Position numbers and translations under genes: made by a program | Shown here: positions 2,636 to 16,470 of the stretch, piece by piece | Layout: the number at the start of each line of letters is the position of its first letter | How positions within the stretch are numbered: the first letter of the stretch is position 1 | Source: Cardiobacteriaceae bacterium | GTDB lineage: Bacteria; Pseudomonadota; Gammaproteobacteria; Cardiobacteriales; Cardiobacteriaceae | NCBI GenBank assembly: GCA_030527905.1 | Contig: JAUMZX010000003.1 | Coordinates: 1-36,018, forward strand | Reading direction: 5' to 3' | DNA: 36,018 bases | The notes under the pieces: generated by a model | What the model was told of the DNA's origin: nothing | Databases searched by the model: none | The model's input: only the letters and a program-made list of their open reading frames with translations

Positions 2636-3740
<1,105 letters not shown>

Positions 3741-4142
3741 GTGACAGCAAAATGGATTCTAGCGCTGGATGTAGGTCAGCGTAAAACGGGCGTCGCTGTC
3801 GGGCAAACGTTAACGCAAACGGCAAAGCCAATAGCGGTACTAAGGCATCCTATTCATTCATTGGATGCCAATCATTTCTCTGGATGGGTAAAAGAATGGT
3901 TCGTTTCAACGATAGTCATTGGTTTACCGCAATTGCGAGATGGCAATACGCATCCTTTAGCGCCTTTTATTTATCGGTTAGGGGAACAGTGCCACGAAGT
4001 ATTTGGCTTACCTGTATATTTTATTGATGAATATTTAAGTTCGCATGAAGCACGGGCTCGGTTGCCGAAAACCAAAGAGGTTGATGCGATGGCTGCTGCT
4101 ATCATTGCAGAAGACTGGTTAACCAGTAATAGAGGGGCATAA
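3741..4142 (+). CDS. ruvX: YqgF/RuvX-family RNase H-fold nuclease (pre-16S rRNA processing)
   Basis: The family has an RNase H fold resembling RuvC and is linked to 16S rRNA 5'-end maturation. The frame is open from 3660, but the true start is the GTG at 3741. A strong AAGGAGG lies just upstream, and this start gives 133 residues, close to the usual 138. Family motifs are all present: LALDVGQRKTGVAVG at the N-terminus (first catalytic Asp), VIGLPQLRDG in the middle, FIDEYLSSHEA (catalytic Glu region) and EVDAMAAAIIAEDWL near the end (last Asp). It stands alone upstream of the pil-chp operon, with a 77-base gap. Confidence 0.9.
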   Translation: MTAKWILALDVGQRKTGVAVGQTLTQTAKPIAVLRHPIHSLDANHFSGWVKEWFVSTIVIGLPQLRDGNTHPLAPFIYRLGEQCHEVFGLPVYFIDEYLSSHEARARLPKTKEVDAMAAAIIAEDWLTSNRGA

Positions 4143-4163
4143 TAGCGTGGAAACATCGCATTT

Positions 4164-4193
4164 TTGATAGTAATCCGTTATTCTATGTCTAAT
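4164..4193 (+). promoter_or_regulatory. Candidate sigma70 promoter of the pil-chp operon
   Basis: TTGATA (4164-4169) and TCTAAT (4188-4193) are separated by 18 bases and lie 27 bases ahead of the pilG start. Both hexamers are close to consensus. The call is from pattern only. Confidence 0.45.
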
Positions 4194-4219
4194 GTATTAG
4201 CGAAAATTAAGGAGTTCGC

Positions 4220-4597
4220 GTGTCTGATAAAAAATCCGTGAAAGTGCTCGTGGTGGACGATAGCGGCACAATACGGAAAACTGCCGAGGCTATTCTTAGT
4301 AAGGAAGGCTATACCGTAGCAACCGCAGAAGACGGTTTTAGCGCCTTATCAAAAGTTATGTCGTTCAAACCCGATCTGATTTTCCTCGATATTATGATGC
4401 CGCGTCTGGATGGATATCAGGTTTGCTCTGTTATTAAAAGTAACGCAACATTTGCTAAAACGCCCATTTTAATGCTCTCAAGTAAAGATAGTATCTTTGA
4501 TAAGGCGCGTGGGCGAATTGCAGGTTCAGAATACTTTATGACGAAACCTTTCTCGCGTGATGAACTGCTCAATGCGATTCGCACGCACGTTAAATAA
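4220..4597 (+). CDS. pilG: Twitching motility response regulator PilG
   Basis: This is a stand-alone CheY-like receiver of 125 residues. It has the acidic pair DD at 13-14, the phospho-acceptor Asp57 in IFLDIMMP, and the conserved Lys in MTKPF. In Pseudomonas, PilG is phosphorylated by ChpA and promotes pilus extension; the role here is by homology. The GTG start at 4220 has AAGGAG at 4209-4214. It is the first gene of the cluster, followed 18 bases later by pilH. The order pilG-pilH-pilI-pilJ-chpA supports PilG over a generic CheY. Confidence 0.93.
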   Translation: MSDKKSVKVLVVDDSGTIRKTAEAILSKEGYTVATAEDGFSALSKVMSFKPDLIFLDIMMPRLDGYQVCSVIKSNATFAKTPILMLSSKDSIFDKARGRIAGSEYFMTKPFSRDELLNAIRTHVK

Positions 4598-4615
4598 GAT
4601 TATAGGAGCCGCCGA

Positions 4616-4975
4616 ATGGCTACGATTTTGATAGTAGACGATTCTCCAACCGAAGCGGAAATTGTGCGCGTTATGCTGGAAAGCGAAGGATATAGCGTGT
4701 TATGGGCTGATACAGCAGATAAAGGCATCAAAACCGCAGAAGAAAAACGGCCTGACCTAATTCTTATGGATGTTGTGATGCCAGGAATGAGTGGTTTCCA
4801 GGCAACACGTAAACTCATGCGGAATCCTGATACTCGCGATATCCCAATCCTTATGTTAACTACCAAGGATCAGGAAAGTGATCGCGCTTGGGGCTTGCGC
4901 AATGGTGCGAGAGAATATTTTGTCAAACCGCCTGAAAAATCAGCGTTATTAGCACAAATTAAAGCGCTACTATGA
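4616..4975 (+). CDS. pilH: Twitching motility response regulator PilH
   Basis: This is a second single-domain receiver, 119 residues. It has the acidic pair DD at 8-9, phospho-acceptor Asp52 in LILMDVVMP, and the switch Lys in FVKPPEK. In Pseudomonas, PilH acts with PilG downstream of ChpA and is tied to retraction or to draining phosphate. The ATG has a clear AGGAG upstream. Its stop overlaps the pilI start by four bases (ATGA), which indicates translational coupling. Confidence 0.93.
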   Translation: MATILIVDDSPTEAEIVRVMLESEGYSVLWADTADKGIKTAEEKRPDLILMDVVMPGMSGFQATRKLMRNPDTRDIPILMLTTKDQESDRAWGLRNGAREYFVKPPEKSALLAQIKALL

Positions 4976-5508
4976 ATATCGAGAAATCAAAAAATGCTGA
5001 AATCAGCCCTTTTGCCATTTTGTGTGAGTACGTACAAAAAGCAGAAGAACGCAAAAAGGTTCTGGATAAATACCATGATTTTGGAGAAAGTTATCTGGCA
5101 TTCACTGCAGGAGATAAATACTATTTGCTTGATATGAAGATGGTACAGGAAGTTTCTACCAGTGTTCAGGAAATTACACCATTACCTTTTACACCGCATT
5201 GGTTATTAGGATTGGTGGGGATTCGCGGAGAGGTTTTTTCGGTCGTGGATTTTAAGCGTTTTGTAACGCCTTCTTTGCCAATACAAAATACAAAGAGCCA
5301 AAGCGGATTTATCATTCTTCATAATGAAGGGCAAGGATATATATTGAAAGTAGATTCCATACAAGGAATTCGTTCTTGTGAGGTGTCTAATTACCAGTCA
5401 ACGCGTAGCTGGCTTAATGGGCAAGCAGCCATGGATGGACTTCAGTGGTTGCGTATTGATCTAAAAAGTCTGGTAACAGATGCTTCGTTTATTCAAAATA
5501 TACAATAA
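4972..5508 (+). CDS. pilI: CheW-like adaptor PilI
   Basis: This 178-residue protein has a CheW domain at about 45-170. Recognisable stretches are the first strand YLLDMKMVQEV, the hydrophobic core LPFTPHWLLGLVGIRGEVFSV (a CheW hallmark) and the later VDSIQGIRS. It would couple the receptor PilJ to the kinase ChpA at the inner membrane. About 40 polar N-terminal residues precede the domain, as in other PilI proteins. It overlaps pilH by four bases and is 12 bases from pilJ. Confidence 0.9.
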   Translation: MNIEKSKNAEISPFAILCEYVQKAEERKKVLDKYHDFGESYLAFTAGDKYYLLDMKMVQEVSTSVQEITPLPFTPHWLLGLVGIRGEVFSVVDFKRFVTPSLPIQNTKSQSGFIILHNEGQGYILKVDSIQGIRSCEVSNYQSTRSWLNGQAAMDGLQWLRIDLKSLVTDASFIQNIQ

Positions 5509-5520
5509 ATTGGGTGGGTT

Positions 5521-6786
5521 ATGTTGAGTTCAAAAAATCGAGTTAGTGACAGAGCTAACAACAAAAGTGCATTTTTTATGCCTGCTATGGCTATTTCTGG
5601 GGTGGCGGGGGGTTTGTCTTTAATAAGTTTGTTTCAATTGTATTTTAGTGGTGGCAGCTTATTAACCATTATATTACCGATAACTCTCATTTCAGTTGCG
5701 ATAGCTGCTTTTTTCTGGTATCAAGTGGTCGGACAACAATATTCGAAAATACAACACGTATCTTCTGAGGCAGAGTTCCGTGTTAAACGAGATCAGGATG
5801 CTATTGTACGTTTAATGAGTGAACTTTCAGATTTTTCGAATGGTGATTTAACAGTAGAAGCACAAGTAACAGAGGACTTCACTGGAGCTATTGCCGATGC
5901 GGTCAATTACGCCATCGAATCGATGCGTGAGTTAGTTGGAACCATTAACCGTACATCTAGCCAAGTTTCTAATGCCTCTAATAGTACGCGTGTTATTGCA
6001 GAGCAAATGCAAAGTTCTTCAATAGAGCAAGCGCAAAAAATCCACTCTATTGCTAAAATTATCGGTGATATGGTTCGTTCATTAGATCGGGTTGCGATGA
6101 GTACGAATGATTCAGCAGAAATTGCCCATAATTCTGTAAGCATCGCTCGTGAAGGTGCGCAGCAAGTGCGTAATACGATCAATGGTATGAATAATATTCG
6201 CGGTAATATTCAAGAAACCCGAACACTGATTAAACGTCTGGGGGAAAGTTCACAAGAAATCGGTAATATTGTAGAAATTATTAAGAGTATTGCCGATCAG
6301 ACTAATATTCTTGCATTAAATGCGGCGATTCAGGCGAATTCTGCTGGTGAGGCAGGACGTGGATTTGCGGTGGTTGCTGACGAGGTGCAGCGTCTAGCAG
6401 AAAGATCGTCTAATGCAACTAAGCGGATTGAAGGGTTGGTTAAAACTATCCAAAATGATACCAATGCTGCGGTTTCATCGATGGAACGTTCTACTAAAGA
6501 AGTTGTAGACGGCGCTAATATTGCCGAAGAAGCTGGTACTGCCCTAAGTAAAATTGAAGATGTTTCAACATCACTTGCGTCCCTCATTGAACGTGTATCA
6601 GAGTCAACACGTAAGGTTTCGACTATGGCAGAAAATATTGCCAGTGACATGGCTCAGATTAATCAAATGACGGTAACGACAACAGAAAACGTTATTAAAA
6701 CTTCTGACTCTATCGAAAACTTAAGCCTGCTTTCGCAGGAATTGAAGAACTCCGTATCAGGCTTCAAATTGCCGGTAGGATATTGA
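5521..6786 (+). CDS. pilJ: PilJ-like methyl-accepting chemoreceptor lacking a periplasmic sensor domain
   Basis: This 421-residue receptor has two hydrophobic helices at about 20-42 and 47-68. A HAMP-like segment follows ([19 protein letters not shown]), then a long signalling coiled coil whose tip contains [21 protein letters not shown], the contact site for CheA and CheW. The ribosome site is GGGTGGG. Pseudomonas PilJ is about 680 residues because of a large periplasmic region between its two helices. Here only a few residues (around SGGS) separate them. The family call rests on position in the operon and the conserved tip. The signal is therefore probably not read through a folded periplasmic domain. 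Confidence 0.9.
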
Positions 6787-6835
6787 TTAATAAAGGTTTG
6801 GTTTTTATGCCGTTAACCAAGATACAGGAGTTTTC

Positions 6836-9800
6836 ATGGCAGGTGAATTAGGCAATCAACTATTGGCGCGAGTCCAAGATGAAATGGTGCGCAATATTTC
6901 AACAGCGAAACGGCAACTTATTGAATGGTTGGAACGCCCTGAATCGGGCGGGGTTGGCGCTTTACGTGAGAATTTGTCTGAGGTTAGTGGCGGTCTTTCT
7001 TTATTGGGAAGGAATGAAGCAGTCAATTTAGTAGAAACGATAGCTGCAAGTGTTGAAAGTTTGAATCATACTGTAACGCAGAATGGTGTGACACCATCAT
7101 TTGTTGAAAATGGTGCTGAAATTGCCTCTGGATTGCTGGTGCTGTCTGATTATATTGAACGTCTAGACCATATTACAGAAAACCAGAAAAAAGCGGTTGA
7201 ACAAGCGACAGAAGCTGTAAAAAGTATTGCTACAGAAGGTGCGGATAAAATTCCAGTTTCCGCGCAGCCATTTATTAATCGTGATACCTATCTGGCGTTA
7301 TCCGCTAAAGTTAACGAGATTATCGAAACCAGTCGTAACCAGATTGAACATCATGCGCGTAATCCCAGTGCGCCATTTAATGTAGAAAGCATTATTGGAC
7401 ATAATAAGAATCTCATTCATCTGTTTGAAGTGCTGAATCTTCAGACGCCTCAGTTATTACTCAAGCAGATTAATCAGATGTTAGCTGAGCAGTTGTCAGA
7501 TAAACAATGGATTGATGTGGCTGAGGCCATGATTTTGGTGCAGGAAACGCTCAGACAATTAGATAAAGATAAAAAAGTTAAGCAGGCAAGCAATTATCAA
7601 GAAGCATTGCAGTTACAGTCGGAACATTCTCGGCAATTAGAAATTGATAAATTGATTCGTGATACTGGCAAACTAGGCAAACGATTCTTTGAATCCTTAC
7701 GCAAAGAAGTTTTGCAAACGGAGACAATCAAATTAGCGCAACCGTGGCGTGAAGCTGCGATACAACTTCTCCATTATAGTGCGATCACAGCATTGGTTGG
7801 CTTCAAAGATTTAGCTATACAACTGCAACGTGTGGGATTATTGTTTACAGAATTCACGCTGCAAAATGATCAGGACTTGAATAAAGCGTATGTTCCAGTT
7901 GTCGATACGCTCGTTGCAGTGGAGTATCTGTTTAATGACTTAGCAGAGGCAGGTAAAATTTCATTACAAGATATCGCGTTTTTGTCTGAATCTGCAGAGA
8001 GTCTTGAAAAAATTAATCCGGTAAGTGCGAAAGCAAAATCGTTATTTGCTGGTTTTGCCAGCATGGCTCCTCAGGAAACAGAGGATGATCTAGTCGATAA
8101 TGGTGGTGATATCCAGCAGTTTAAAGATGTGCTGGATTCGTCTTTAGATGTTCTTGCAGATGACTTCTCCTCTCTTGAGAATATTGAAGAAAAACCTGAG
8201 GAAGAAGCAGAATTACCTTCTGTTTTGATCTCAGGTGTGCACTCTGCGTCAGCCACACAACAATCTCAATCTTCGACAGGTATAGGAAAGGCTCAATTAG
8301 AACATCACGATGATGCTCCTGTTGTACCGATGAATCAAGGTGGAGGCGAAAACCTCGCGAGCTCTGACATGAGCGGCGGTCAATCAATGTCATCTGTAGC
8401 ACCTGCGACGGCAACTGAACACTTACCGCCCGTTTCTCCCAGCCATACGGTACAAGCAACACAATCTCCTGAAGCAATTGATGACAGTCATGTAAGCACA
8501 AGCGTTGTAGAGCAGGAAGATGTTACTGATACGGAACATGTAGAAGCATCATCACTGACGAATGCTGCTGAATCAATGGCGGATGCAGCAGATAGACAAG
8601 ATGTTGATGGGCATGAACGAGCAGAATCAGGATATACTGAAACACTACCTGTAGATGATTCAGAAAATGCTTTAATAGATGTTGCTAAAGAAACGACAGC
8701 AATGGCATCATCTCGTCACGATGTAGCATCGCCTGCAATCAATATATCTGAGTATGATGAAAAGCTTCCAGTAGCAGGTTCAGCCGTACCTACGATTGCT
8801 TACTTCGCAGGAAAATCATTACCTGATTTACAGGCTATGGATGTTCCAGTTGAGAAAATGTCTTTCGTGGGCAGTCATGCCGATGCGGTAATGGACGATG
8901 AAATTCGCGAGTTCTTTAATGAAGAATTAGGTGAAATCGTCATCAGCATGAATGATGTGTATCCTCAATGGCGAAATAAGCCTGATGATAGCGCATTAAC
9001 AACCGATATTCGTCGTGCGTTCCATACGTTGAAAGGATCGGGTAGAACCGTAGGTTATGAAGCTCTGGGTGAGTTTGCTTGGCAACATGAACAGTTATTG
9101 AATCGTGTAATCGAAAAGGACTTTAACGCAAATTCTTTAGTCTGTGATACTGTTGGCGATGCTGTTTCTTTACTGAATGTTCTGCAAACAGGCAGTGAGT
9201 TTGTTGAGCATAAAGGTGCTTTATTACAACAAGCATTAGTTGCAGAACGAGTGCGCTTGTCGCTACTTGAAAATCCTGAAAGTGAACAATCAGCGCTTGA
9301 TAGTTTGTCGCGTAAATTACGTTTATCTGATGGTCAACAGGCGCAAGATATTGCAGATAATGCGGTGTCTCCAGTAACCGCGGGTGAATCTGATGGACTT
9401 AATGATTGGGCCGCTTTGTCTGATATCCGTCTTGAAGAAGAGAGTACAGATAAAGAAGTGCCTGCTATTACGTTAGAGACTGATGCAGTACATAAACAAG
9501 AGATATCCACAGCGCCTCTTTCGGAATTAGAAGATACTGTTGATACAACTTCGCATATCGGCTTGGCTGAAGATGACTTAGCTGCACATGATGCATTTGA
9601 CGATAGCCACACAGCCCCAGTTAGTGAGAGTGTCCATGAGTTAACAATTCTGCCAAATGAGTTACCTGCGAAAACGGAAGATGCTGTTATCGCAGAACAT
9701 AGCCCTTCTCCTCATGAAGGGAAAGAGGCCCTTAGTGCCAATAATTTTAGTGAGCAACCTAGCTATAATAAAGCGCTACATACGCTGCAACGCGGATTAC

Positions 9801-12800
9801 GTATGGGTGAACCAGATGCAGATATGCAGGCTGCTCTGGCAGAAACCATTCGCCGGCAATGGCAAGAAAATTTTGCGGATGATCCTGCATTAAGAGCGGC
9901 GATGGCGCAAAGCCTAATAGCTTCGTTCCAAAATAATGAGACGGAACAAGCTCAATGGGTAGCAGACATACTGGAACAAGCTAATAATGCAGGGACGTCA
10001 CCTGTTCCAGTGCAACCAGGACTGGTTCCTCAGATGGGTTTAGGTGTTCCTCGACATGAGGCACCTGTGGGTATCACACAGGAAGCCTATGACCGAATGT
10101 TGACGACTTTACGGCGCGGTCTAGCAGCAGGAACCGATGAGGACATGCAGACCGTATTGTCTGATACTATTAGTCGTCAGTGGCTACAACAAGGAATTAG
10201 TACAGAAGGAGAAACGCGCGACAACATCGTTCAACATCTGAAAGCTGCGTTGGCTAGTGAAGGAAGTGTTGATGAATCGTTGCTGGATAACATGCTGTCG
10301 AATGTGCCGCATCGTGTACCAAGCATTCTTCCAGAAGGTGTTCGTCAAGATTCTTATGGAGTCATGATGGAGACCTTGCGTAGTGGTCTTAACGATGCCT
10401 CTAATACAGAAATACAAGAAGCATTAGCGACCGCCATTGGTAACCAGTGGCAAAATCAGAATAGTTTGCAAGATAGTGCCATTCGAGCGGCTGTTGCCGA
10501 ACAAATGGCAGCAGTACTTGGCGGCAATGGACATGAAAATGCCGCATTAGTAGAAGCCGTACTGAATCGTGCTGCAGAAAAAGCGAAACAACCTCCTGCA
10601 GGAATCAATGAGGGCGATTACCAAGAGGTATTGGAGACCCTACGGACTCATCTTGGGGAAGCGCAAACAAGCGATGCTCAGGAAACATTAGCTGCACAGA
10701 TAGGTGCGCGTTGGCAGCAAGAAAGCTTACAAGATGAAGCAACCCGTGATGCTATTGCGCAACGCATTATTGCTGCGCTTGGTGGGAAAGGTGAAGCAGA
10801 TACTGCCGCTGTTGAAGCAATATTGAACCGTATTGCCGCACAAGTACCAAAACAAGAAGCTGGTACCTTACCTGTCGGAGTACGACAAGACGCATATGAC
10901 ACCATGCTGCAAACCTTACAAAGTGGGCTTGAGGCTGCGCAAGGTAATGCGGCGGCACAAGAAGCCTTGGCGGCAACGATTGGCGCCCAATGGCAAGAAC
11001 CGCATAGCTTGCAAGATAGCGAAACACGGGCAGCGGTTGCACAACAAATCGCGACGGCTTTAGGTGGCGAAGCGGATGCAGCAACGATAGGTGCGGTACT
11101 AGAGCGAGCGGCGGCACAGACAATACAATTACCGACGGGCGTAAAACAAGAAGCCTACGGAGCGATGTTGCAAACCTTGCAAAGCGGGCTTGGAGCTGCA
11201 CAAGGAAATGCGGCGGCACAAGAAGCCTTGGCGGCAACGATTGGCGCCCAATGGCAAGAACCACATAGCTTACAAGACAGCGAAACACGGGCAGTGGTTG
11301 CACAACAAATCGCAATGGCATTAGGCGAGGAAGCTGATGTTGCGGCTATAGAAGCAATATTGGAACGCGCTGCAGTAAAAAATGTGGCTATATCTCAATT
11401 ACCAGAAGCGTTTACACCAGATATTTATAATCGCTTGTTATCTATGTTACGCCGTGGACTGCTTGATGATGATGCAGATACACAATTTGCTATGGCAGCA
11501 ACATTGCAACGGCAATGGCAACAACAAGCATTACCAAGAGATACGGCTGCGATAGATCAGGTCAAGGAACATTTAAATGCATCGCTTTTGGCAGAAGGCA
11601 TTGATGCCGGTTCGCAATTAGCACAAATTTTTGCGGATGCTGAACTGGATGTAGCTAAAGATAGTGCTGCTAATGAGGTGGTCATTAAAGCAGTACTGTC
11701 ACATGACGAGACGTCTGTTCAAGATGATAGTAAGACTATTCTTGCAACCGTTTCATCAGCAGATATACAAGAGGATCAGGAGATAGATGAATCTCTGGTT
11801 AATCCGTCTATTGAGTCAGAACATGTGGAAACATCTGAAGAAAGCACATTTGTTGATATGGTTTCACAATCAGATGAGGAGAGCAAAGACGTGGCGACGG
11901 TTACTCTAGAGCCCCCCGTTTTTGTCGATGCTACTGTTGAACATGATCTTCATCTAGAAGATGCTGAAGTTTATCCCGAAAATATTGACTCAGATGTTGT
12001 GCTAGAAGAGCTCGAATCGGATACTCAGTTTATCGATACTGCAGTTGTTCCCGGAGATATAGCGCCAGATAGTATGACGGATATAGCAGCGGATAATCTC
12101 GATATTGTGTCACATGATACGAATATTGCCTCCCCTACAACACATGGTCGTGTGGCTGTACCCTTGAGCAGTTATCACAACGCTGCTCCAAATGCTGTTC
12201 GTCCTACGGTTAATCCTGCCGAACGCTTGAATCAAGAATTGGCTTCGTTAGCACAGCATCCTGGTTTGGATAATGCACTGAATCAAGATAGATATGGAGA
12301 ATCAGGCAGTGCAACGGCAAATCGTGCTGGTTTTCTGCGCGCGGTTGACCAGTTTGAGACCTTATCTCAGCTGGCAGATAAAAATGATGCACCAGAAGTC
12401 GTAGATGATTTACTGGATTCCGTTTATGAGATTGAAGATAGTATTGATAGTGAAGTTGCCCCTCCATGGATATGGCGCTTACTGGATTCTATCGAACAGT
12501 TATTGTTAACGCACAAGCATGAAGGTACACCGCTTAGTTTGAGCTGTGCCTCGGTATTGCGACAAAGTGCAGGACTCATTGAGAACTTTGAAGAAGAAGC
12601 TAACGAAGATGATGCGATAGAAGCAATCAATGCCTTGATGAATGCCCGTCGTGAAATGGGGGGAGCGCAAAGAAGTGGCGATGCTGCTGTAATGCCATAC
12701 AGTGGTGAACCTTTAGGTAGCGAGCTGGTTGCAGATCCTAATGCGAACACCATGTTAGCAGAGACGTTTATTGATGAGGCTATGTCGCTTTTCGCCCATA

Positions 12801-15800
12801 GTCAGGAAGAAGCGGAGCGCTGGGATGAAAACCGCGAACAGTTAAGCCGTTTGGATGCCGTGCGCCGTGATATGCACACGCTCAAAGGTAGTGCGCGCAT
12901 GGCAGGTTACAATGCGATTGGGGATTTAACGCACGGCGTAGAATCGTTGATTGATGGGATTGTCAGTGGACAGGTAGAAGCCAGCAGCAAAGCCACGGCG
13001 ATACTGGTTGGCGCGATGTGGCAAGGCATGTTGATGCTTGATACGGTACGTGATGGATACTTGCCACAGACAGATCCGTACATTCTCAACAATATTCATA
13101 GCTATCTCAATCAACCACTTCCATACCCACAAGTTGCAGAAGCAGCAGAGGCCGCCAGACAAGCACAGCAACAGGCGGCTATCAGCGATGCACAGTTCCG
13201 TGAAATGCCTGATAGCGTTGCAGATAAAGCAGCGGAACTTGCGGTAGAAGAAGTCCCGATAGTGACTGACTTTGATGACAATATTGATCCAGTTCTGGTC
13301 GATATTTTCACAGATGAGGCGCAAGAATTATTGCAAACAACCAGCCAACTCTTAGAGGATGATTTTAGTAAGAAAGAAGTGGTTGAAGAATTGCAGCGTA
13401 CTATGCACACCCTGAAAGGGGGAGCACGTCTAGTAGGATTTACCGCTATTGGCGATACGGCGCATTTGATGGAATCGGTTATTGACAAGATTCCAGATTT
13501 GGTAGAAAGCAAGGTACGTCAGGCGAAAACATTGCTGAACTTTGGTTTGGATGCGCATTATGAGATGTTAGACAGTGTCATGCGGCACGAAATGCCACAA
13601 CCAGCATTGGAAGTTAATGATTCATTGAAAATCTTTGCTGAAAGTGGTCAATACCGTGTTCCTGCACAAAGAGCAGGTAGTGGGCAGGACGATGTGGCTG
13701 AGCCAGATACTGCACCACAACAGCAAGAAGCCGCTCCAGAAGAAATGCCTGCTGCTCCGTTACCTGATGTGGCATCAGAATCACGCGGACAAGAGTCTCA
13801 AGCGTCACAAGCAAAAGAGAACACATCGCCTGCAACGGATAAAGCGGAACAACAGGTTGTGGAGCAATCTCAATCAGCTGCAAATGCAGAGACAGCGCAA
13901 CATGCTTCAACTAGCGCTGAAGCAACTGCACCAGTATCTGAACGCGGAGAAAATACGGCGGCACAGACTGCTCAGAGCGCTGCTACAACGGCCGCGGATC
14001 ATAAAGCTGACATAACAACGACAAGTGTTGCGGATACTGCCGCATCGAACGAAGTTGCCAGTAAACCGCCGGTACTGGATATTGAGCATGCGCACGAATC
14101 TCGCGATCTCAACCTGCCGCAAGAGAAAGCTGAAACGCCAAGAAAAGAAGATAAAGCTGTTAAGGAAAAAGAACCGCAGGAAACACCGACATCAAGTGGC
14201 GATTTACCGCGTTATGTGCGAGTTGATGCACAATTGCTGGATGATATGATCGCGATGACGGGTGAAACTGCGATTATGCGTTCACGTATGGAGAACGTTA
14301 TCAGCGAAGCAGAATTCAACTTGAACGAACTCACGCGCGTTACAATCCGTATTGCCGAGCAGATGCGGCGTTTAGATGGCGAAACAGAAGCGCAGATGCT
14401 TTATCGCCGCGAGCAACAGGGGGAAGATGATCTGCATTTTGACCCGTTGGAAATGGACCGTTTTTCTGAAATTCAGCAGCTTTCACGGCAGCTTTCCGAA
14501 GCCATTGATGACTTGAAAAACTTGCAGGATACCCTGAGTCAGGATAATACGACTTTACGTAATCTTTCTAACCAGCAAGGGATTATTCAGCGCAACATTC
14601 AGGATCACTTACTAACCACGCAGTTGATGCGCTTTGATGTACACGAAGCTCGTTTGCGCCGTTTGGTACGGCAAACGGCAAAGAGCGTTGGCAAAGAAGT
14701 CAATTTCCTTCTGGAAGGTGGAGAAGTAGAAGTTGAACGACGTCTGTTGGAAGATATTTTGCCTGCATTGGAACATATGATTCGTAATTCCTTGGCACAT
14801 GGTGTTGAAAAACCAGAAGTGCGGCGGGCAGCAGGTAAACCAGAAATAGGCACGATTAAAGTAGCTGTGTCGGTACATGCAGCAGAACTCTCTGTTCGCG
14901 TCATTGATGATGGTCAAGGACTAAATTACGATAGAATTCGTGAGAAAGCGGCGGCCAAAGGTATGCTTGATGCAGAAAGAGCTGATGACGAATCTTATCT
15001 AAGCAGCTTGATTCTACGTTCAGGCTTCTCAACTGCCGAGTCTCTGTCACAATTGGCAGGGCGCGGTGTTGGTATGGACGTCGTGAATGAGATGGTTAAA
15101 CAACGACGTGGTCAGATATCGGTTTACTCTATTCGTGATAAAGGAACAGAGTTTACGCTGAATATGCCATTCTCTATGAGTATTGCAGAAGTGTTGTTGG
15201 TAGAAATTGCAGGGCAAAATTTTGCGGCGCCGATGTCTTCAATTGCTGTTATCGGCCAGGTAGAGCGCGAATTGCTACAACGTAGTTATGACGGTGAAGT
15301 CGTTTATCAGCATTACAATGATCAGGATTATCGTCAATTCATTCTAGGCGCATACTTTAAACCAGAGCAGTATGTCTTCTCCATGGAAGAAAATAGTGCG
15401 CCCGCGCTATTTATTGATGCAGGGGGAGAGCCCGTTGCGTTCCATGTGGATCGTATCCTGAATCGACTAGAAATTATTGTTAAAAACGTCAACCGACAAG
15501 TTCTCAATATTCCGGGTATTTCGGGCGCAACCATTTTGGGTGATGGACGTGTCGTGCCTGTACTAGAATTGCTGGACTTATCACGTCGGATTGCGGATCT
15601 CAAGCCGATCCCAGATAGCGAACCGTTGATAGAAGAAATTAGTGTGCCGAATGTCTTGGTTGTGGATGATTCGGTCACGATGCGGAAAGTAAGTACCCGT
15701 TTGTTGGAGCGGCATCATTACAATGTTGCTACAGCGAAAGACGGTCTGGATGCGATTGAAGTCTTGGCGAACTTTAATCCTGATATTATTCTGCTTGATA

Positions 15801-16024
15801 TTGAAATGCCGCGTATGGATGGCTTTGAATTTGCAGCTTACGTACGGAAGAACAGTGCCGTTCCTCAAGTGCCTATCGTCATGATTACTTCACGGACGGG
15901 AGATAAGCACCGTGAGCGTGCAGATGCAATTGGCGTGCAGGGTTATCTGGGTAAACCATACAGTGAAGATGTATTAATCCAGACATTGGAATTCCTGCTG
16001 AAGAAACGGGGAGAAATACAATGA
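6836..16024 (+). CDS. chpA: ChpA/PilL hybrid chemosensory histidine kinase, giant form with an internal repeat array
   Basis: This is the central CheA-type kinase of the pilus chemosensory system, 3062 residues against about 2470 in Pseudomonas. In order: an N-terminal helical ChpA region with degenerate Hpt-like segments (about 1-410); an acidic linker (415-680); Hpt1 with FHTLKGSGR, His730; a linker; seven tandem repeats of about 90 residues (970-1610); an acidic linker (1610-1800); Hpt2 MHTLKGSAR, His2014; Hpt3 MHTLKGGAR, His2191; an Ala/Gln/Glu/Thr-rich linker (2260-2455); the dimerisation domain (from 2458); the ATPase with N-box HMIRNSLAHG at 2647, DDGQG at 2691 and GRGVGMD; a CheW domain (about 2785-2925); and a C-terminal receiver with Asp2988. 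All catalytic motifs look intact. It has a good AGGAG ribosome site and overlaps the next gene by four bases. I do not recognise the repeat array. Confidence 0.95.
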   Translation: MAGELGNQLLARVQDEMVRNISTAKRQLIEWLERPESGGVGALRENLSEVSGGLSLLGRNEAVNLVETIAASVESLNHTVTQNGVTPSFVENGAEIASGLLVLSDYIERLDHITENQKKAVEQATEAVKSIATEGADKIPVSAQPFINRDTYLALSAKVNEIIETSRNQIEHHARNPSAPFNVESIIGHNKNLIHLFEVLNLQTPQLLLKQINQMLAEQLSDKQWIDVAEAMILVQETLRQLDKDKKVKQASNYQEALQLQSEHSRQLEIDKLIRDTGKLGKRFFESLRKEVLQTETIKLAQPWREAAIQLLHYSAITALVGFKDLAIQLQRVGLLFTEFTLQNDQDLNKAYVPVVDTLVAVEYLFNDLAEAGKISLQDIAFLSESAESLEKINPVSAKAKSLFAGFASMAPQETEDDLVDNGGDIQQFKDVLDSSLDVLADDFSSLENIEEKPEEEAELPSVLISGVHSASATQQSQSSTGIGKAQLEHHDDAPVVPMNQGGGENLASSDMSGGQSMSSVAPATATEHLPPVSPSHTVQATQSPEAIDDSHVSTSVVEQEDVTDTEHVEASSLTNAAESMADAADRQDVDGHERAESGYTETLPVDDSENALIDVAKETTAMASSRHDVASPAINISEYDEKLPVAGSAVPTIAYFAGKSLPDLQAMDVPVEKMSFVGSHADAVMDDEIREFFNEELGEIVISMNDVYPQWRNKPDDSALTTDIRRAFHTLKGSGRTVGYEALGEFAWQHEQLLNRVIEKDFNANSLVCDTVGDAVSLLNVLQTGSEFVEHKGALLQQALVAERVRLSLLENPESEQSALDSLSRKLRLSDGQQAQDIADNAVSPVTAGESDGLNDWAALSDIRLEEESTDKEVPAITLETDAVHKQEISTAPLSELEDTVDTTSHIGLAEDDLAAHDAFDDSHTAPVSESVHELTILPNELPAKTEDAVIAEHSPSPHEGKEALSANNFSEQPSYNKALHTLQRGLRMGEPDADMQAALAETIRRQWQENFADDPALRAAMAQSLIASFQNNETEQAQWVADILEQANNAGTSPVPVQPGLVPQMGLGVPRHEAPVGITQEAYDRMLTTLRRGLAAGTDEDMQTVLSDTISRQWLQQGISTEGETRDNIVQHLKAALASEGSVDESLLDNMLSNVPHRVPSILPEGVRQDSYGVMMETLRSGLNDASNTEIQEALATAIGNQWQNQNSLQDSAIRAAVAEQMAAVLGGNGHENAALVEAVLNRAAEKAKQPPAGINEGDYQEVLETLRTHLGEAQTSDAQETLAAQIGARWQQESLQDEATRDAIAQRIIAALGGKGEADTAAVEAILNRIAAQVPKQEAGTLPVGVRQDAYDTMLQTLQSGLEAAQGNAAAQEALAATIGAQWQEPHSLQDSETRAAVAQQIATALGGEADAATIGAVLERAAAQTIQLPTGVKQEAYGAMLQTLQSGLGAAQGNAAAQEALAATIGAQWQEPHSLQDSETRAVVAQQIAMALGEEADVAAIEAILERAAVKNVAISQLPEAFTPDIYNRLLSMLRRGLLDDDADTQFAMAATLQRQWQQQALPRDTAAIDQVKEHLNASLLAEGIDAGSQLAQIFADAELDVAKDSAANEVVIKAVLSHDETSVQDDSKTILATVSSADIQEDQEIDESLVNPSIESEHVETSEESTFVDMVSQSDEESKDVATVTLEPPVFVDATVEHDLHLEDAEVYPENIDSDVVLEELESDTQFIDTAVVPGDIAPDSMTDIAADNLDIVSHDTNIASPTTHGRVAVPLSSYHNAAPNAVRPTVNPAERLNQELASLAQHPGLDNALNQDRYGESGSATANRAGFLRAVDQFETLSQLADKNDAPEVVDDLLDSVYEIEDSIDSEVAPPWIWRLLDSIEQLLLTHKHEGTPLSLSCASVLRQSAGLIENFEEEANEDDAIEAINALMNARREMGGAQRSGDAAVMPYSGEPLGSELVADPNANTMLAETFIDEAMSLFAHSQEEAERWDENREQLSRLDAVRRDMHTLKGSARMAGYNAIGDLTHGVESLIDGIVSGQVEASSKATAILVGAMWQGMLMLDTVRDGYLPQTDPYILNNIHSYLNQPLPYPQVAEAAEAARQAQQQAAISDAQFREMPDSVADKAAELAVEEVPIVTDFDDNIDPVLVDIFTDEAQELLQTTSQLLEDDFSKKEVVEELQRTMHTLKGGARLVGFTAIGDTAHLMESVIDKIPDLVESKVRQAKTLLNFGLDAHYEMLDSVMRHEMPQPALEVNDSLKIFAESGQYRVPAQRAGSGQDDVAEPDTAPQQQEAAPEEMPAAPLPDVASESRGQESQASQAKENTSPATDKAEQQVVEQSQSAANAETAQHASTSAEATAPVSERGENTAAQTAQSAATTAADHKADITTTSVADTAASNEVASKPPVLDIEHAHESRDLNLPQEKAETPRKEDKAVKEKEPQETPTSSGDLPRYVRVDAQLLDDMIAMTGETAIMRSRMENVISEAEFNLNELTRVTIRIAEQMRRLDGETEAQMLYRREQQGEDDLHFDPLEMDRFSEIQQLSRQLSEAIDDLKNLQDTLSQDNTTLRNLSNQQGIIQRNIQDHLLTTQLMRFDVHEARLRRLVRQTAKSVGKEVNFLLEGGEVEVERRLLEDILPALEHMIRNSLAHGVEKPEVRRAAGKPEIGTIKVAVSVHAAELSVRVIDDGQGLNYDRIREKAAAKGMLDAERADDESYLSSLILRSGFSTAESLSQLAGRGVGMDVVNEMVKQRRGQISVYSIRDKGTEFTLNMPFSMSIAEVLLVEIAGQNFAAPMSSIAVIGQVERELLQRSYDGEVVYQHYNDQDYRQFILGAYFKPEQYVFSMEENSAPALFIDAGGEPVAFHVDRILNRLEIIVKNVNRQVLNIPGISGATILGDGRVVPVLELLDLSRRIADLKPIPDSEPLIEEISVPNVLVVDDSVTMRKVSTRLLERHHYNVATAKDGLDAIEVLANFNPDIILLDIEMPRMDGFEFAAYVRKNSAVPQVPIVMITSRTGDKHRERADAIGVQGYLGKPYSEDVLIQTLEFLLKKRGEIQ
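9764..11665 (+). repeat. Seven tandem in-frame repeats coding an approximately 90-residue helical unit within chpA
   Basis: Repeat units begin at the conserved Tyr codons at 9764, 10088, 10355, 10619, 10895, 11156 and 11426 (residues 977, 1085, 1174, 1262, 1354, 1441 and 1531). Unit lengths are 108, 89, 88, 92, 87 and 90 residues, with a shorter last one. The shared pattern is Y..ML.TLR.GL, then an ALA.TI..QWQ block, then D...R..VAQ.I...L, then a final short helix such as AVLERAA. Repeats 5 and 6 are nearly identical in DNA, with 56 bases in a row unchanged (10946-11001 and 11207-11262). The outer units are diverged. This looks like repeated duplication with the youngest event in the middle. 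Confidence 0.9.
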
Positions 16025-16470
16025 AACAAATCAACATCATGCTTGTGCCTACTGAAGACGAATACCTCGTATTTCCAGCAGAAATTGTAGCTCATGTTTT
16101 TCCGTATGCGCCGCCGCTATTGGTCGATGATGCGAGTGAATTCGTCATTGGTGGGTTGCTTATTCAGAGCGATAAATTGCCTTTACTTGATTTGTTCGCG
16201 GATGAAAAATCAGCACAGAAGGATGGTCGCAGTAGCTTTCGAGTTGTTTTAATTTCAGCTATCAGTACACAGTCACGTTTTCGTCAGTATGCTATTCTGT
16301 CGCATGGCGAACCGTTGATTATGAACGCTGCCGAAGAAGATATAAAATCGTTGGGTAAAGGTAATCATCGTTATGCCTCACGCTACGTTTCTCTTGCAGG
16401 TCATGATGACGGTAAACGTATAATCCTTCCTAATCTAATGGCATTGGAAGCCGAACTGACAATGAGCTGA
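16021..16470 (+). CDS. CheW-like protein, probable ChpC counterpart
   Basis: This is a small protein of 149 residues with a weak CheW fold. The opening strand ([23 protein letters not shown]) and the middle stretch [18 protein letters not shown] match the layout of CheW domains that sit after ChpA. In Pseudomonas the gene after chpA and chpB is chpC, a CheW-like adaptor; here chpB is absent and this gene directly overlaps chpA by four bases (ATGA). It is probably an alternative adaptor linking a second input to ChpA. Identity with ChpC itself is inferred from position. Confidence 0.75.

Follow-up and report, generated by a model that had tools for sequence, protein, structure and literature searches.

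We found a tandem array of seven related units, each of about 87 residues, in ChpA, the large CheA-type kinase that directs pilus-based twitching and is encoded in a type IV pilus (Tfp) chemosensory locus on a 36,018-nucleotide stretch of DNA (the window; contig JAUMZX010000003.1 of assembly GCA_030527905.1) from a Cardiobacteriaceae bacterium. The array occupies ChpA residues 967-1607 (window 9734-11656), between the phosphotransfer domains Hpt1 and Hpt2. Within the genome collections searched, which are samples with one genome per species, it occurs only in the ChpA proteins of this bacterial family. It has a fixed-variable-fixed plan, is under purifying selection and bears no likeness to Hpt domains. 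The reading that we favor, with roughly even confidence and from sequence comparison, is that the array may be a length-variable structured spacer or scaffold joining Hpt1 to the kinase core, in which the fixed units, especially unit 3, would serve for capping or docking.

The array consists of seven diverged units

A sequence-only reading of the window had described a seven-copy helical repeat in ChpA at positions 9764-11665. Leave-one-out profiles confirmed the repeat, as each unit was recovered by the profile of the other six with E-values from 5.9e-14 to 2.3e-32 (computed at Z=1000). The bounds were correct to about 10 codons, but by homology the first unit begins about 10 residues earlier. 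The period of the array is 85-91 residues, with an extra 20-residue insert separating units 1 and 2, and the columns Y, L, L, Q and W are invariant across all seven units.

Units 5 and 6 were the only ones close to each other in DNA sequence (81% over 245 nucleotides), and Tandem Repeats Finder reported no repeat for the array. The array is therefore an old, diverged repeat at the protein level. Since the genome is a draft (263 contigs, 86% complete) in which near-identical copies may have collapsed, seven units is a minimum.

Each unit is predicted to be a four-helix domain

AlphaFold2 modeling of a single unit, with an input alignment of 42 natural units, produced four helices (residues 8-22, 28-41, 51-65 and 69-87) with a mean predicted local distance difference test score (pLDDT) of 80 and a predicted template modeling score (pTM) of 0.72. 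Besides the helices, of 14-19 residues each in the 88-residue unit, the model contained a short turn, and hydrophobic positions recurred at angles of 80-95 degrees, the pattern of an amphipathic helix. One unit is predicted from this model to be a compact four-helix domain. A three-unit model had the same helices, with a pLDDT of 78 and a pTM of 0.45; because of the latter value, the orientation between units is not fixed by the model. A confident single-unit model combined with a loose inter-unit orientation is consistent with, but does not prove, an arrangement of linked beads.

Foldseek searches with the single- and three-unit models returned no PDB match with an E-value below 0.75 and no significant BFVD match. 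The fold prediction, a check that the sequence-only reading had suggested, has given a four-helix unit with no structural match.

The units have no confident match among known domain families

Searches of Pfam, NCBIfam and PHROGs gave no confident single-unit match, the scattered matches reaching at best an E-value of 0.00068 in 1 of the 42 units, and nothing in NCBIfam matched the whole array. One candidate was DUF3349 (PF11829), a family of mycobacterial proteins that stand alone and have been described as five-helix bundles (PMC6151718). The whole array matched PF11829 with an E-value of 6.3e-9 and 36.9 bits, above the cut-off of 28.3, but it passes this cut-off because the scores of related repeats sum; the best single unit of the window reached 16.9 bits against 28.3. 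Units 3, 4 and 6 matched DUF3349 in one common register (E 0.011-0.032), and matches were found in 8 of the 42 units, at an E-value of 0.0033 or weaker. While the best PDB match of the seven-unit profile was the DUF3349 structure 3ol3 (E 0.017), the same structure fell to an E-value of 0.53 with the 42-unit profile, where it ranked beneath a designed helical repeat. An hhalign comparison with four solved members gave a probability of 19%, and no DUF3349 structure was among the 50 fold matches listed for the unit model, the best of which had an E-value of about 1.

Because single units scored below the cut-off, the 42-unit profile weakened the match and the hhalign probability was 19%, we rejected the assignment of the units to DUF3349 as mycobacterial Rv0543c-like five-helix bundles, which we consider quite unlikely. 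A very distant kinship may exist, as the match holds one register. The view of the sequence-only reading that the repeat belongs to no named domain family was upheld by the single-unit library searches and by the failure of DUF3349 in the stricter tests.

The units could also be strongly degenerate Hpt domains, akin to the silent Xpt domains found in the Pseudomonas protein. In many other ChpA proteins, additional Hpt domains sit in the stretch taken by the array here, and silent Hpt domains and an unrecognized Hpt-like domain have been reported in Pseudomonas ChpA (PMC10782961). However, a profile comparison with 120 ChpA Hpt domains gave a probability of 0.9% over 15 columns, and the Pfam Hpt model matched just three stretches of the whole ChpA. 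The helix lengths (14-19 residues in an 88-residue unit) also argue against this identity, and no Hpt structure was among the fold matches listed. When the phospho-acceptor histidine of the HxxKG motif was sought, no conserved histidine column was found in the 42 units, the best column having histidine in 16 of the 42, in a loop of central units. The profile probability and the lack of a conserved histidine led us to reject an Hpt identity, to the extent that profiles can tell, and we regard it as highly improbable.

Within the genomes searched, the unit is confined to the ChpA of one family

In its own genome, the unit was found only in chpA. Two genomes of the same genus encode 14 and 13 units in ChpA (open frames of 3658 and 3503 codons), and in three further genera of the family the counts are 4, 2 and 2, again always in ChpA. 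The genus unit profile and that of the other family genera match at 98.6%. In every family member with certain units, the array lies between Hpt1 and Hpt2 and has acidic linkers on both sides.

None of 80 named gammaproteobacterial ChpA loci, including those of Pseudomonas, had the unit, and among 369 Gammaproteobacteria genomes it was present in this bacterial family only. A search of 398 Pseudomonadota genomes found it in its own genome only, plus one partial match in a distant genome (G607; 38 columns, E 3e-4), which we judged to be probably a chance match among about 400 genomes. No unit was found in the plasmids and phages searched, and searches of the literature library turned up no paper describing the array. 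These results agree with the proposal of the sequence-only reading that the unit is limited to these kinases, since nothing convincing was found outside ChpA in the own genome, the class and phylum genomes, the plasmids or the phages. The two outcomes that it had named as counting against a new component were placement of the unit in a known domain family and presence of the array in Pseudomonas ChpA; neither was observed.

The ChpA proteins of genus g4 (G005 and G010) contained no certain unit and had possible single units. Linker repeats in ChpA proteins were also sought by windowed self-search. In G005 (L135; open reading frame [ORF] 3607-9993), a 56-residue repeat of helical appearance (AAYQAGVEKLIAEGLGEAEATKVAQAMIE...) is present twice in this linker, at residues 288-508. 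In G010 (L136; ORF 3409-11481), residues 769-961 hold acidic, near-identical 84-residue tandem repeats in the linker that holds the helical array in relatives. A second Hpt-like stretch immediately precedes the two units of G006 (L133; ORF 3460-11133) at about residues 850-960, with its HTLKG histidine lost (FSAIGSS). In G007 (L134; about 8507-8552) and G005 (L135; about 9858-9993), two overlapping frames make up chpA, with the split following Hpt1. The break in G005 is near a run of six A, and in both genomes a sequencing error, a true frameshift or recoding would fit.

In four family genomes (G003, G004, G009 and G011), some of them incomplete, the ChpA core search yielded no match that passed its threshold. 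Three of the four have FimV, and the missing ChpA core may reflect assembly gaps or loss of the kinase. Across the family, 11 of 12 genomes contain FimV, whether or not they have the array, and we therefore rejected its loss as an explanation for the array.

Fixed ends, a variable middle and a conserved third unit

The arrays of the genus follow a 4 + n + 1 plan, with four fixed N-terminal units, a central n of 2, 9 and 8, and one fixed C-terminal unit. Units 1, 2, 3, 4 and the last unit formed cross-species clades by position in three species, with support of 100, 98, 99, 94 and 100, respectively; most central units clustered by genome in both the tree and the best-match table. Central units 7 and 8 of G002 are identical in protein and 97% identical in DNA, suggesting that unequal recombination or conversion took place recently.

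The ratio of nonsynonymous to synonymous substitution rates (dN/dS) between paralogous central units was mostly 0.09-0.22, and one recent pair had no amino acid change. Between species, the synonymous sites of the fixed units were saturated (proportion of synonymous differences, pS, about 0.85), and the proportion of nonsynonymous differences (pN) was about 0.18. When the present genome (G000) was compared with its two genus relatives, identity was 91% in the kinase, 89-90% in the receiver, 82-85% in Hpt1 and 62-66% in the N-terminal domain. Linker identity was 34-48%; within the genus, the acidic linker before the array was about 40% identical and the one after it 42-48%. Identity was 69-76% for units 1 and 2, 59-65% for units 4 and 7, and 85-86% for unit 3, which showed 85-90% identity between species. 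The conservation of unit 3 differed from that of the other fixed units (p = 0.0005, Fisher's test on aligned positions of one species pair). As judged from these substitution patterns, purifying selection is acting on the units, and because they are far better conserved than the flanking linkers (59-90% versus 38-48%), they are not filler.

It is unlikely, in our estimate, that the array is a neutral repeat expansion in a permissive linker with no role of its own. Such an expansion would fit the varying copy number, the near-identical recent copies in G002 and the unrelated repeats that G005 and G010 carry in this linker. It would not fit the low dN/dS, the conservation far above that of the linkers or the near-core conservation of unit 3.

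A proposed spacer or scaffold in ChpA

The simplest role for the array would be that of a folded spacer or scaffold whose length could change with function retained, because it has no phosphotransfer site and is positioned between Hpt1 and Hpt2/Hpt3. In this proposal, the tandem four-helix domains would link the N-terminal domain and Hpt1 of ChpA to Hpt2, Hpt3 and the kinase core, and the array itself would carry no phosphoryl groups. The central units would be interchangeable, their count shifting by unequal recombination and setting the reach or valency, and the fixed end units would cap the array. Unit 3 probably makes a specific contact, either with another part of the Pil-Chp system or with ChpA itself, since its rate of evolution is no higher than that of Hpt1, a slowness that a spacer role by itself would not explain. 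The sequence-only reading had offered a scaffold, a spacer or a docking platform; our results agree with that proposal, and from them we infer the spacer role, the docking at unit 3 and the effect on signaling. More tentatively, and with somewhat less than even confidence, we suggest that a new lineage-restricted repeat family may make ChpA a length-tunable scaffold whose near-invariant unit 3 recruits a pilus-polarity partner.

A rather doubtful alternative is a docking platform in which each unit binds a copy of one partner, such as a pilus-motor or polar protein, so that the copy number sets polar gathering. Tandem domains commonly give multivalent binding, and the purifying selection on individual units and the near-invariance of unit 3 between species would suit such binding. 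However, the conserved positions of the unit are mostly hydrophobic core with helical periodicity, and the known polar hub, FimV, is in nearly all family genomes regardless of the array; there is no known partner.

Several points weigh against the spacer or scaffold proposal. The pTM of 0.45 of the three-unit model, whose alignment comprised same-genus sequences only, may come from a shallow alignment, and a rigid solenoid and flexible beads would both fit. ChpA proteins of the family can do without the module, as the two from g4 show no certain unit. The estimate of high conservation for unit 3 is drawn from three species. Neutral unequal crossing-over would likewise be expected to produce fixed ends and a homogenized middle, but on its own it is insufficient, since it leaves the low dN/dS and the slow evolution of unit 3 unexplained.

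The chpA locus and kinase architecture

The gene order pilG-pilH-pilI-pilJ-chpA in the window is that of a type IV pilus chemosensory locus (Table 1). Two receivers, a CheW-like protein and a methyl-accepting chemotaxis protein are encoded immediately upstream of chpA, the neighborhood of a Tfp-class CheA, and Pfam found the domain order of that class in ChpA: Hpt, dimerization, HATPase_c, CheW and receiver. The dimerization domain scored slightly below the curated Pfam cut-off (21.3 versus 23 bits). The sequence-only reading had placed Hpt1 at His730 and Hpt2 at His2014, as the HTLKG motif and Pfam now bear out; the third Hpt domain (His2191) was absent from it. An ORF of 149 residues with no Pfam match (16021-16470) occupies the chpC position between chpA and accA, and similar ORFs are found at the chpC position in relatives.

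Table 1. Positions in the window of chpA, its neighbors and the parts of ChpA
Feature	Position	Strand	Evidence
Response regulator, single-domain, pilG position	4220..4597	+	Response_reg 1.6e-28
Response regulator, single-domain, pilH position	4616..4975	+	Response_reg 1.1e-27
CheW-like adaptor, pilI position	4972..5508	+	CheW 7.9e-17
Methyl-accepting chemoreceptor, pilJ position	5521..6786	+	MCPsignal 4.5e-42
chpA, CheA-type kinase, Tfp class, 3062 aa	6836..16024	+	Pfam: Hpt x3, HATPase_c, CheW, Response_reg
Hpt1 phospho-acceptor His730 (HTLKG)	9023..9025	+	Motif and Pfam
Acidic low-complexity linker before array, residues 816-966, isoelectric point (pI) ~4.2	9281..9733	+	
Unit 1, residues 967-1054, fixed N-terminal type	9734..9997	+	Leave-one-out E 2e-18; orthologue clade
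Unit 2, residues 1075-1162, fixed N-terminal type	10058..10321	+	Leave-one-out E 3.2e-22
Unit 3, residues 1164-1251, fixed, most conserved	10325..10588	+	Leave-one-out E 5.8e-30
Unit 4, residues 1252-1338, fixed N-terminal type	10589..10849	+	Leave-one-out E 1.4e-23
Unit 5, residues 1344-1430, central variable type; groups with unit 6	10865..11125	+	Leave-one-out E 2.3e-32
Unit 6, residues 1431-1517, central variable type	11126..11386	+	Leave-one-out E 7.3e-31
Unit 7, residues 1521-1607, fixed C-terminal type	11396..11656	+	Leave-one-out E 5.9e-14
Acidic low-complexity linker after array, residues 1608-1870, pI ~4.1	11657..12445	+	
Hpt2 phospho-acceptor His2014 (HTLKG)	12875..12877	+	Motif and Pfam
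Hpt3 phospho-acceptor His2191 (HTLKG)	13406..13408	+	Motif and Pfam
Kinase core: dimerization, HATPase_c, CheW, receiver domain	14213..15988	+	Pfam

Comparison with known systems

In Pseudomonas, ChpA contains eight or nine Xpt domains, of which several are silent (PMC10782961, PMC12632253), and a scaffold role has been suggested in the literature for the silent ones. Why ChpA is so large and has so many, partly silent phosphotransfer domains has yet to be settled in the field of pilus chemotaxis (PMC12632253). The bacterial family described here keeps only three clear Hpt domains, with an expandable structured module occupying the corresponding stretch. Should the array act as a spacer or scaffold, then distance or recruitment, and not the number of phosphotransfer domains, would be the feature under selection; the natural length variants, with 2, 8 and 9 central units, allow this idea to be tested.

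Like the units of the array, TPR, ARM and designed helical repeat (DHR) proteins are built from tandem alpha-helical units, but their repeats are of 34-42 residues compared with about 87 residues and four helices here, and no significant fold match links them. DUF3349 (PF11829; 2KVC, 2LKY, 2M0N and 3OL3) shares a PEGV...Y..LL..LRR.L-like start and a small all-helical size with the units; its members are stand-alone mycobacterial proteins (PMC6151718), whereas the units are in tandem within ChpA and score below the cut-off. Hpt domains (PF01627) are likewise small, helical and found in ChpA, but the units have neither their conserved histidine nor a match to their profile.

The sequence-only remark that Pseudomonas ChpA is the shorter protein holds roughly, but the array is no simple insertion, as many other ChpA proteins have extra Hpt domains there. 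Both the Pseudomonas protein and the one described here are multi-Hpt CheA kinases with HATPase, CheW and a C-terminal receiver, encoded in the gene order pilG-H-I-J-chpA. While Pseudomonas ChpA has its eight or nine Xpt domains and the array is absent from the loci examined, the ChpA of this bacterium combines three Hpt domains with seven helical units.

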